This document shows, in pieces, positions 1,834 to 15,596 of a stretch of DNA of 20,607 bases. Within the stretch, counting starts at the first letter, position 1, and each line of letters opens with the position of its first letter. A model generated the notes under the pieces. That model had not been told where the DNA came from. It was given only the letters and a program-made list of their open reading frames with translations, and searched no databases. Made by a program: the position numbers and the translations under genes. The DNA is from a virus. Where the stretch lies: IMG/VR virus record IMGVR_UViG_3300028025_004534, positions 1 through 20,607 of that record; one strand, given 5' to 3'.

Positions 1834-2540
1834 TGGTTATAGTATTCACGCACAACAATGCGCTTAAAATTAAAATCAATGTTTAATACCTCCTGTTTGC
1901 TGATGTACTGAAATCCGTTTTTTTTAGATTTCATAAATGCGCCATATTCTTTGACATCGCCAAACTCCGCATTTTTCTTTAACTCGTTTTCCCTCATCTC
2001 AATCGCCCTGCGATAATATTCTATCTTTTCATCTTCATCTATAATCATCAATCCTAACTCAATAATCCAATCATAAATGTAGCCGGGTATCATATTAAAG
2101 GCAGTCGGATTTTTACCGAAATCCTCAATATCTTTTAACTTTTCTTCCTTGGTCATTTTGTATTCTATTTGTTTTGGAATCTCAACAGGCGCATCTTTTG
2201 CCAGTTCGTTTATATAAACCCTGTATTTGTCCATTATTTCAGTAAGATATGGCAGTGTAAATTGGTCATAAACGATAACATCTGCATCAATCTTTTTTTG
2301 TATCGCTAAATCAAACGCTAATAAAATTTCATCTAATTTTTTTTGCGGATAATATTCCCTGATTTTCTGAAATAGTATTTTTGATTCAATCTCTGAAGGC
2401 ATATTTTTTGAGCGCAAACCAACCATAACAAAGATTTTTGCGAGCGTTTGACCTATTTCAGCATCTGTACAATCTGATATTCTTTTTGACTTATTGGAAC
2501 TGATTTGCCCAATTAACGACTGATTCAATTCTATCTGCAT
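1830..2540 (-). CDS. Conserved phage protein, probably replication-associated
   Basis: The ATG at 2540-2538 is preferred, giving 236 aa. It follows ACTACTAACA, a leader like those of its neighbours, whereas the longer frame would need TTG. The N-terminal region (ISDCTDAEIGQTLAKIFVMV, then SEIESKILFQKIREYYP) and the stretch ILLAFDLAIQKKIDADVIVY with FTLPYLTEIMDKY are all-helical. They resemble a protein often found beside replication initiators in Bacteroidota phages and prophages. It overlaps the upstream replication-protein gene by 50 bases and is coupled to VRR-NUC downstream. A helicase-loader or accessory role is inferred from position only. No Walker motif is visible. Confidence 0.65.
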   Translation of the reverse strand: MQIELNQSLIGQISSNKSKRISDCTDAEIGQTLAKIFVMVGLRSKNMPSEIESKILFQKIREYYPQKKLDEILLAFDLAIQKKIDADVIVYDQFTLPYLTEIMDKYRVYINELAKDAPVEIPKQIEYKMTKEEKLKDIEDFGKNPTAFNMIPGYIYDWIIELGLMIIDEDEKIEYYRRAIEMRENELKKNAEFGDVKEYGAFMKSKKNGFQYISKQEVLNIDFNFKRIVVREYYNQ

Positions 2541-3228
2541 TGTTAGTAGTTTTAAGTTCAAAAAATCCTTTCCATCCGTTTGCGATGGATTGGTTGATTA
2601 TTTCTATGGCATTTGATTCTATGTTGTTTGAAAGTTTAGCTAATTGATTCAAAGATAATTTTTCTGAGGATCCTGTTTTATATGTAAACCTATGGCAATT
2701 TTTTTTGTAATCTTTCCACTCATTCCATTTTTTATTGAATATCTCGGAATTAAACGGATAATCTAAATTTTCAAAAATTTCGCTTTTATTAATACTTATA
2801 TCTTTATCCTTATCTTTATCTTTATCTTTAATAGTTTCGTAACTATTTTCTAATGGTTCTGTAATCATTACGTAATCATTACTGAATAATTCACTAACTA
2901 ATTCTAAAAGGTTATTTTTTTTAAGTTCATTAACCACAGAAATTACCGCAGGTTTTTTTGAGTTTAGCGTGCCGTATTGAAATTTCAGAAACTTTGGAAT
3001 AAACCATATGTTATTGATTTTCAAAACTCTACCGCTCATCATTTCAATTAAAAGTTTCTCATCTATTGATGTATTACACATCATATTCATCAGGTTAATT
3101 GATGGCTTGCAAATTCCTGCGTGGTTGCAATTATCCAGTAACCATTGCCAAATGATTCTGTAATCATTGCTCAATGATAGATACCAATCGTCTTTCCATT
3201 TTTCGGTATCTGTAAATCGCTTAGCCAT
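2491..3228 (-). CDS. Replication-initiation-like protein (winged-helix)
   Basis: The start at ATG 3228-3226 (245 aa) is chosen because AAGGAGGT lies five bases upstream. The alternative ATG at 3243 would add only MKEVK. Residues 1-110 (WYLSLSNDYRIIWQWLLDNC, GICKPSINLMNMM, IPKFLKFQYG) resemble the N-terminal winged helix of phage replisome-organiser/DnaD-like proteins, which bind the origin and recruit helicase. A KDKDKDKDKD linker (about 136-146) separates this from a C-terminal helical domain with FNKKWNEWKDYKK and NGWKGFFEL motifs, typical of these proteins. The linker DNA is a short tandem repeat. It overlaps its neighbours on both sides, as expected in a replication operon. Confidence 0.68.
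   Translation of the reverse strand: MAKRFTDTEKWKDDWYLSLSNDYRIIWQWLLDNCNHAGICKPSINLMNMMCNTSIDEKLLIEMMSGRVLKINNIWFIPKFLKFQYGTLNSKKPAVISVVNELKKNNLLELVSELFSNDYVMITEPLENSYETIKDKDKDKDKDISINKSEIFENLDYPFNSEIFNKKWNEWKDYKKNCHRFTYKTGSSEKLSLNQLAKLSNNIESNAIEIINQSIANGWKGFFELKTTNNADRIESVVNWANQFQ
2803..2831 (-). repeat. Six-base tandem repeat in a coding linker
   Basis: About four to five imperfect copies of tctttatc/tttatc encode the alternating Lys-Asp linker of the replication protein. The unit is in frame, so slippage would only lengthen or shorten the linker. Confidence 0.7.
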
Positions 3229-3430
3229 TTTTACCTCCTTCATTTTTTATTTTTTGTAGTTCAAAGGTTAAATCTAAAATAAACTCTTCAATAGTTTCTA
3301 AATCCAAATCAATTGTAAATTCACAATTTTTTTCATTAGAAAATCTTATACAGATATCATTATCTTTTGTATAATAAAAATCAATTGATTTTTCAAAATT
3401 CCCATCTAAATAAAATTTTTCCGTTGGCAT
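3221..3430 (-). CDS. Hypothetical acidic protein (69 aa)
   Basis: The frame starts at ATG 3430-3428. The protein is acidic and alternates beta-type segments (KSIDFYYTKDNDICIRFS, CEFTIDLDLETIEE) with a C-terminal helix (EFILDLTFELQKIKNE). This suggests a small alpha/beta fold. Its last codons (GGA GGT) provide the Shine-Dalgarno-like sequence of the replication gene, whose ATG lies inside it, so the two are coupled. The start codon directly follows the T-tract of a hairpin at 3439-3473, so expression may depend on reading through that structure. No family is recognised. Confidence 0.65.
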   Translation of the reverse strand: MPTEKFYLDGNFEKSIDFYYTKDNDICIRFSNEKNCEFTIDLDLETIEEFILDLTFELQKIKNEGGKNG

Positions 3431-3438
3431 AAAATAAA

Positions 3439-3473
3439 AAAGGTTCGCACTGATAGCAGCAGCACGAACCCTT
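3439..3473 (-). terminator. Intrinsic-terminator-like hairpin before the 3430 gene
   Basis: On the minus strand GGTTCG (3470-3465) pairs with CGAACC (3447-3442), extended by a G-T and two A-T pairs. A 17-base loop lies between, and TTTTTTATTTT runs on to the ATG at 3430. It could end transcription of the DnaA-like gene or act as an attenuator. Its loop contains 8 bases complementary to the loop of the neighbouring hairpin. Confidence 0.6.
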
Positions 3474-3488
3474 AATGGTTGAAATTAA

Positions 3489-3519
3489 ATTTCTTCTCGG
3501 CTGCTATACGTGAAGAAAT
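3489..3519 (-). other. Second hairpin with loop complementary to the first
   Basis: ATTTCTTC (3489-3496) pairs perfectly with GAAGAAAT (3512-3519) around a 15-base loop. The loop holds gctgctat (3500-3507), the exact reverse complement of atagcagc (3453-3460) in the adjacent hairpin loop. The 112-base gap 3431-3542 holds only these two structures and no gene. Confidence 0.6.
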
Positions 3520-3542
3520 CTTACGCTAATATACAAAAAAAT

Positions 3543-4046
3543 CTACAATCTACTTAACGAGTTATGCACACACTTAACAACAATCTCAGATAAAGTAATA
3601 TCAGTTTTTTTAGACTGAGCAAGCATATCGTAAAACATCGTTTCAGGAATATCTATCAGGATCTTTTTGAAACATTCATTATCCTTTACACGCTTTGAGA
3701 TAACGTGATTGTAATAATCTAAATGCCTGTAAACACACAAATGCAAATGCTCCAGTTTGTGCCTCATATCATCGTACACGTCTAAATATTTCCTCATCTC
3801 ATCACGTGCATTAATTACAGATGAATGATGCCTCCCGAATAAATAACCTATTTTTTCAATCGTTAAACTTAACGCTCTGTTATTTAGCAGTAAATCGTAT
3901 ATCATCATCCTGCCCATCACATACTCTTTAACCCTTCCCTTTTTCGTTATAGTGTTCGGATTAAGATTAAGATAAAAACAGGCAATGTGAATTATATCCG
4001 ATGGAGTATAACTACTCGTATCGTCTTGTTCTAATGGATGCCTCAT
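3543..4046 (-). CDS. Stand-alone DnaA domain IV-like DNA-binding protein
   Basis: Residues about 13-95 match the DnaA C-terminal DNA-binding domain. TPSDIIHIACFYLNL is followed by RVKEYVMGRMMIYDLL and by GYLFGRHHSSVINA (67-80), which corresponds to the DnaA signature around G-R-x-H-[ST]-[ST]-V. The AAA+ ATPase domain of real DnaA is absent. The C-terminal 40 residues (DIPETMFYDMLAQSKKTDIT) look like a small added helical unit. It may recognise DnaA-box-like sites in phage or host DNA, as initiator, regulator or competitor of host DnaA. Its ATG overlaps the TGA of the gene upstream (ATGA). A two-hairpin element follows its stop. Confidence 0.82.
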   Translation of the reverse strand: MRHPLEQDDTSSYTPSDIIHIACFYLNLNPNTITKKGRVKEYVMGRMMIYDLLLNNRALSLTIEKIGYLFGRHHSSVINARDEMRKYLDVYDDMRHKLEHLHLCVYRHLDYYNHVISKRVKDNECFKKILIDIPETMFYDMLAQSKKTDITLSEIVVKCVHNSLSRL

Positions 4047-6862: not shown

Positions 6863-6886
6863 AAAAAACCCCCATAAAAATGGGGG
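6863..6886 (-). terminator. Intrinsic terminator of the late operon
   Basis: On the minus strand CCCCCAT (6886-6880) pairs with ATGGGGG (6875-6869) around a TTTT loop, followed by TTTTTT (6868-6863). This is a textbook rho-independent terminator. It sits 63 bases after the stop of the last late gene. Confidence 0.9.
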
Positions 6887-9043: not shown

Positions 9044-9065
9044 GGGGGTGCAATTAAACACCCCC
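9044..9065. terminator. GC-rich hairpin before the spanin gene
   Basis: GGGGGTG (9044-9050) pairs with CACCCCC (9059-9065) around an eight-base loop. On the plus strand it is followed by eight T, a good terminator for antisense transcripts. On the minus strand the tail is only ATTTTAATT, so it would be a weak terminator or an mRNA-stability element between the holin and spanin genes. Confidence 0.6.
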
Positions 9066-15543: not shown

Positions 15544-15572
15544 AAAAAAAAGGTGGTGTTTATTTCACCACC
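15544..15572 (-). terminator. Intrinsic terminator after the capsid gene
   Basis: On the minus strand GGTGGTG (15572-15566) pairs with CACCACC (15558-15552) around AAATAAA, followed by eight T (15551-15544). It is a strong terminator 24 bases after the capsid stop, placed to limit read-through into the following gene. Confidence 0.9.
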
Positions 15573-15596
15573 CTTTTATTCAGTTATTGAATTTTA

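Follow-up and report, generated by a model that had tools for sequence, protein, structure and literature searches.

A covarying kissing-loop element, likely a cis-acting leader, before replication genes of phages that probably infect Bacteroidota

Organization of the locus

The window (the whole stretch of 20,607 nucleotides of viral DNA that was analyzed) has a pair of hairpins with complementary loops between a DnaA-like gene and a block of replication genes. The features are all on the minus strand and are listed here from 5' to 3' on that strand.

3543-4046, minus: upstream gene, small protein with a DnaA C-terminal DNA-binding domain (Pfam PF08299 Bac_DnaA_C, E 2.6e-8, above cut-off)
3555-3557, minus: predicted upstream promoter element, TTR (TTA in the window), separated by 21 nt from the -7 element
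3526-3533, minus: -7 promoter element TATATTAG (consensus TAnnTTTG)
3487-3521, minus: hairpin A, the 5' hairpin, with a 9-nt loop (3508-3500) and kissing bases AUAGCAG (3507-3501); from folding and covariation
3474-3486, minus: linker AAUUUCAACCAUU between hairpins A and B; from the alignment
3439-3473, minus: hairpin B, terminator-like, with a 14-bp stem and a 7-nt loop CUGCUAU (3459-3453); from folding, terminator scan, and covariation
3431-3441, minus: U-tract and U-rich spacer UUUUUUAUUUU, reaching the start codon; from the terminator scan
3221-3430, minus: first gene of the replication block, a small ORF of 69 aa, with its ATG immediately after the spacer
2491-3243, minus: replication-initiation O-like protein (PHROG 678, E 5.5e-7)

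The minus strand is taken as the functional one because the flanking dnaA-like gene and the replication block are both encoded on it and because a U-tract is located 3' of the 3442-3470 hairpin only in this orientation. The kissing-hairpin RNA spans 3521-3431, in the order hairpin A, linker, hairpin B, and U-tract, followed by the AUG at 3430. The original prediction described two hairpins with an exact 8-base complementarity (3453-3460 against 3500-3507), and both are present as described. The hairpin at 3442-3470 is terminator-like, as proposed, but on the minus strand hairpin A (3521-3487) comes first and hairpin B (3473-3439) second. Likewise, the complementarity of eight bases is exact, but the kiss proper consists of 7 bp and the eighth base is part of the closing pair of B. 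All seven loop-B bases are complementary to seven of the nine bases of loop A (AUAGCAG).

Promoters of Bacteroidota have the form TTG / TAnnTTTG. The arrangement TTA-N21-TATATTAG (3557-3526) fits this form and is a predicted promoter, from which transcription is expected to start near 3521; TTR and TAnnTTnG elements with the same 21-nt spacing were also read directly in relatives L002-L007. At the other end of the element, the UUUUUUAUUUU-AUG spacer is seen again in relatives that were found without requiring it. The 69-aa ORF has no Pfam match, and in L002 and L063 the leader is directly followed by its homologs.

The 95-nt minus-strand RNA folds with a predicted energy of -27.4 kcal/mol (z of -3.5), better than all of 200 dinucleotide shuffles. 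In shuffled versions of one window strand, pairs of hairpins with complementary 7-nt loops arise ∼0.13 times on average (12 of 100 shuffles). Taken alone, the sequence of the window is therefore no more than suggestive, and the relatives carry the claim. Other strong terminator-like hairpins in the window are at 9044-9065, 15547-15577, and 6869-6886, and the first two were called on both strands.

Conservation and covariation of the paired loops

Six related viral contigs, found only through their DnaA-like protein, all keep the element after the DnaA-like gene. Their loop pairs, which include AUAGCAG/CUGCUAU, GUAGAAG/CUUCUAC, and GUAGUAG/CUACUAC, differ in sequence and stay complementary, and the junction between U-tract and AUG is constant while the downstream gene varies. 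The first strict pattern scan returned only these same six contigs; further members were added by pattern scans and a motif scan. One pattern, AAGG...CCYTTTTTATNTTATG, mostly retrieved unrelated terminators, which were filtered out by loop complementarity.

Leaders of type I, to which that of the window belongs, combine a long hairpin A, whose loop has 9-10 nt, with a hairpin B of simple terminator form. In type II, hairpin A has 4-5 bp and a loop that is as a rule exactly 7 nt, and hairpin B is longer with internal loops. Alignments of 17 type I and 18 type II sequences were built, with members picked partly by loop match. The stems of hairpins A and B each covary on their own: across the 17 type I sequences, eight of eight scored pairs in hairpin A have changed on both sides (95.6% of cells paired), and hairpin B is paired in 99.3% of cells with many exchanges between G-U, A-U, and G-C. 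In the type I kissing helix, all cells (100%) are paired and four of the seven pairs have changes on both sides; none of 500 shuffles was equally high in cells paired and covariation score, and helices slid out of register are 13-75% paired. The type II kissing helix is 96% paired, with five of seven pairs changed on both sides and slid versions reaching at most 39%. Exchange of loops between members gave fewer pairs in all 100,000 permutations. The compensating changes that were to be sought in related phages were found in both stems and in the kissing loops.

Since several alignment members had been picked using loop complementarity, additional tests were built to be free of loop-match bias. 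Upstream regions were taken from two replication-protein families, one Lin1244_N/DUF4373-like and the other weakly like DUF1376; a 7-nt loop pair flanked by two stems is present in 91 of 156 regions (58%) versus 24 of 780 shuffles (3%). Fifty-four distinct leaders were then picked only by a TAnnTTTG-like box and U-richness of the last 12 nt, and every one of them carries 6- or 7-mers that are complementary and correctly spaced, versus 17% of shuffles. Among other gene starts on the loci studied, 8 of 1,858 show the same spacing class, of which five are replication leaders outside the query set, one is before an inserted homing-endonuclease-like ORF, and two are AT-rich chance occurrences. Loss of loop complementarity with retention of the stems, the observation named beforehand as refuting a kissing pair, was not seen; the six closest relatives and all 54 leaders keep the pairing, and with the covariation of the loops this upholds the kissing-loop pair that had been proposed. 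We regard the kissing pair as strongly supported by covariation, to the extent that sequence allows, and the structure and position of the element as strongly supported as well. Comparison across the collection indicates that compensating mutations maintain the element in more than 100 virus sequences.

The geometry of the element is constrained. Both loops are on the same strand, ∼40 nt apart, in every member. Spacing between loops is 41.5 ± 1.4 nt in type I and 39.1 ± 1.0 nt in type II, and its near constancy despite differing sequences is as expected for pairing in cis. The distance from loop B to the AUG is tight within each type (21-25 or 28-31 nt). In nearly all of the 54 leaders, TAnnTTnG precedes loop A, by 19-21 nt in type I and mostly by 8-10 nt in type II. 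This suggests that the RNA begins at the foot of hairpin A and that its 5' leader consists of the kissing element as a whole. The family has at least 22 different loop pairs, five of them added by eye, and the 22 loop types give a loop A consensus of R-U-N-N-N-M-N with an invariant U2. Runs of 5-8 U are present in all ten distinct type I leaders and runs of at least 5 in 36 of 44 of type II; some leaders of type II retain the kiss with a U-tract that is broken up or shifted (CUAUUUUAUUU, UUAAUCUUUUU, AUUAUCUUUUU).

Complementarity ends at seven positions, as the flanking positions pair in only 5 and 9 of the 54 distinct leaders. A conserved design of simple, mutually exclusive terminator and antiterminator helices is thus not supported. 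Because pairing stops at 7 nt and both stems covary independently, the conserved state appears to be both hairpins and the kiss together. A long antiterminator helix, in which loop A and the 3' stem pair with the B arm, was suggested by the CUGCUG repeat of the window and was rejected because it is not conserved.

The linker has features of its own. Its AUUUCAACC core is conserved across much of the type I alignment. In the window (3474-3486) and its type I relatives, the linker contains a second copy of ATTTC, a piece of the 5' arm of hairpin A. In a group comprising L127, L145, L151, and L152, the linker repeats CCAC of the same arm. The repeat, which changes along with the hairpin A arm in two groups, gives the 3' arm of A an alternative partner. 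In L229 (4757-4880) and the L174 group, the linker has an extra hairpin (TTGATTGA...TCAATCAA; GGTG...CACC) and the spacing between loops is still 41-42 nt.

Gene context and proposed function

Several different first genes follow the element, starting 0-7 nt past the U-tract, indicating that the element, rather than any single gene, is the constant. The DnaA-like gene is dispensable as a partner, as other leaders come after ssb-like or unrelated genes; at several loci of type II, an SSB-like DLPF tail was read by eye at the end of the upstream gene. Small ORFs can be slotted in right behind the leader: in L235 (1228-1500), the leader is followed by an ORF of ∼65 aa, like the 69-aa ORF of the window, and only then by the DUF4373-like gene. 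A further leader form, GUGCGAG/CUCGCAC, stands before inserted ORFs. In L338 (902-1000), L339, L340, L342, L343, and L373, the leader has loops GTGCGAG/CTCGCAC or GTACGAG/CTCGTAC and a stem AGTTGT/ACAACT, and precedes an HNH/NUMOD-like homing-endonuclease ORF that has seemingly been inserted between the leader and the replication gene.

The constant arrangement of promoter, kissing hairpins, U-tract, and AUG before varied first genes favors a cis-acting leader over a gene-specific riboswitch or an unrelated small RNA, and we consider a cis-leader function likely. The original proposal of a control point before the replication proteins is supported. We lean toward the interpretation that the element makes up the whole 5' leader of the mRNA for phage replication and acts in cis as a kissing-loop transcription attenuator, probably switching the first replication genes on or off or setting their timing. 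Promoter activity, termination, and regulation at the leader are inferred, with attenuation favored over translational control or a released small RNA. A GC-rich hairpin with a U-tract stands between promoter and first gene in the window, in 10 of 10 type I leaders, and in most of type II.

According to this attenuation model, the element has a Bacteroidota-type promoter of its own, from which transcription would begin at the foot of hairpin A, and this hairpin would fold first. As hairpin B emerges, its 7-nt loop would pair with loop A to form a compact two-hairpin kissing fold, in which hairpin B ends in a U-tract just ahead of the AUG of the first replication gene. The kiss would set how readily hairpin B closes and halts RNA polymerase, making the fraction of transcripts that read into the replication genes adjustable, and a phage or host protein recognizing the kissing fold perhaps does the setting. 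If the kiss forms before the 3' arm of B emerges, it could slow or promote the closing of that hairpin. Folds of the nascent chain start with hairpin A; at the stage where loop B has emerged and its 3' arm has not, pairing of loop A with loop B is the best structure in most members tried, and once the arm is out hairpin B forms. In several members, loop A transiently pairs with the B arm, and this extended pairing is not conserved. The AACC of the linker also pairs transiently with GGUU of the B 5' arm, a weak mini-hairpin seen in several members and lacking proof by covariation.

A fully coaxial kiss in cis would span ∼30 bp and would require the 13-16-nt linker to be nearly stretched (an estimate), raising the possibility of a kiss between two RNA molecules. 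Leader RNAs that terminate could accumulate as short RNAs and provide a plasmid-like copy control, in which their loops kiss the nascent leaders of the same phage and shut down expression of the replication genes as genome copies rise, a scenario that we regard as unlikely. If it were true, the many loop types would act as compatibility groups between co-infecting phages.

The main rival of attenuation is translational control by an operator of the T4 gene 32 kind. Here the 5' kissing fold would protect the mRNA and would present or hide the U-rich spacer and AUG; by analogy with T4 gp32, a replication protein or SSB might repress its own translation by binding this fold. There is precedent in the gene 32 mRNA, which has a 5' pseudoknot and then a less structured stretch with the ribosome-binding site (PMC535899). 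The tight distance between loop B and the AUG within each type and the SSB-like tails encoded upstream at several type II loci are in line with such an operator, as is the kiss kept by a minority of type II leaders that lack a good terminator, suggesting that termination may not be the universal function. Yet the spacer is U-rich, whereas translation start regions of Flavobacterium favor A, not U, at -3 and -6 (PMC6847099), so the U-tract is better explained by termination, and an intrinsic terminator needs a U-run next to a GC hairpin, as provided here by runs of 5-8. We therefore give control of translation or mRNA stability a limited probability, well below that of attenuation. A stand-alone phage small RNA of ∼90 nt, which would act in trans on host or phage RNAs or dimerize via its own loops with the next gene a mere neighbor, is improbable. 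Promoter and terminator do bound a unit of this size, and FopS, a Bacteroides small RNA family found in two contigs of the search, has the same CCUUUUUUAUUUUAUG ending layout. But the distance to the AUG is fixed, the next gene is nearly always a replication gene or an ORF inserted before one, and mutual pairing of the variable loops leaves no conserved free seed except the linker.

Two other explanations fare worse. Origins of replication often carry palindromes, and the element adjoins replication genes and a DnaA-domain protein, as an origin or cruciform acting as DNA might. However, many stem cells are G-U, which is stable in RNA and mismatched in DNA, and the promoter, U-tract, and AUG are at fixed places relative to the hairpins; a DNA element is very improbable. 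An ordinary terminator hairpin with chance complementarity would suffice for the window by itself, where the loop match is not beyond the shuffled rate given above, but it is refuted by the 22 or more complementary loop pairs of the relatives and by the outcome of both loop-blind comparisons.

The element, which precedes the replication genes of many uncultivated viruses, represents a widespread RNA family that has not been filed before. Evidence for a tertiary contact between its loops is unusually clear, and the element occupies the step at which a phage becomes committed to replication. Translation in Bacteroidota is independent of Shine-Dalgarno pairing. The leader offers a simple test system for a kissing contact controlling a terminator or start codon in this phylum, and its many natural loop pairs are ready-made orthogonal parts.

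Occurrence and relation to known RNAs

Each viral contig searched has one strong match. No Rfam 15 family reached its gathering cut-off in the window, seven other member loci, or 13 more leader loci; at a relaxed E-value, the best match was ncr982, with 23 bits versus a cut-off of 50. We suggest that the element is a new RNA family, absent from this library, of the known kind of structured regulatory leader. The hosts are probably Bacteroidota, judging from the promoter type, the lack of Shine-Dalgarno sequences, and a structural protein weakly similar to those of Nonlabens phages. A covariance model detected no member in 395 Bacteroidia genomes, with nine candidates scored per genome and limited sensitivity, and ten Bacteroidia genomes with homologs of the replication proteins have no leader in the start regions that are readable, several of these loci being readable in part. 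A pattern scan of genome contigs gave eight matches, none of which is a member by eye. A DNA search of named phages using the element found no match; the gap between start codon and preceding gene is short in Flavobacterium phage 1/32 and Porphyromonas phage 005b and leaves little or no room for a leader. A match in L246 was rejected as chance, and a doubtful one in L131 (534-670; model E 0.014), ahead of a gene for a GIY-YIG-like endonuclease, may be a distant kissing pair (CTCTAAC/GTTAGAG).

In ColE1, the 7-nt loops of RNA I and RNA II pair fully, vary in sequence as long as they remain complementary, and control replication. The phage leader resembles this system in the first two respects, with two stem-closed loops, full mutual complementarity, and compensating changes, and presumably in the third. 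Unlike in ColE1, where an antisense RNA pairs with its target in trans, both loops are in one RNA, ∼40 nt apart on the same strand, and no separate antisense RNA opposite a primer RNA was found or is needed. The c4 antisense RNA of phages P1 and P7 is likewise structured, comes from the 5' portion of an operon, and acts by pairing between parts of one transcript. It (RF01695) differs from the phage leader, which has no Rfam match, in pairing with target sites around a later start site. Attenuators of the pT181 and rplJL types also have structured leaders in which an intrinsic-terminator hairpin lies ahead of the first gene. The phage leader, in contrast, has no conserved antiterminator helix, and its conserved interaction keeps both hairpins. 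As in the T4 gene 32 operator, a tertiary-folded 5' end of a phage replication-gene mRNA is directly before the ribosome-binding region, but the T4 structure is a pseudoknot of ∼28 nt with A/U repeats and demonstrated gp32 binding, whereas the leader has two separate hairpins, a 7-bp kiss, a terminator-like second hairpin, and a protein partner that is conjectural.

FopS (RF04319) is likewise a short RNA of Bacteroidota that ends in an intrinsic terminator; it lacks kissing loops and has a single-stranded 5' seed and one hairpin, acting in trans on susC mRNAs (PMC11697453). Matches to this family were reported for L113 and L086 only, and for neither the window nor any kissing leader. In L113 (425-493) and L086 (1788-1856), TTTTTTATTTTATG comes after the FopS terminator, reproducing the junction of the kissing leaders and their spacing to the ATG. 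These junctions suggest that phages carry the FopS small RNA family of their hosts.
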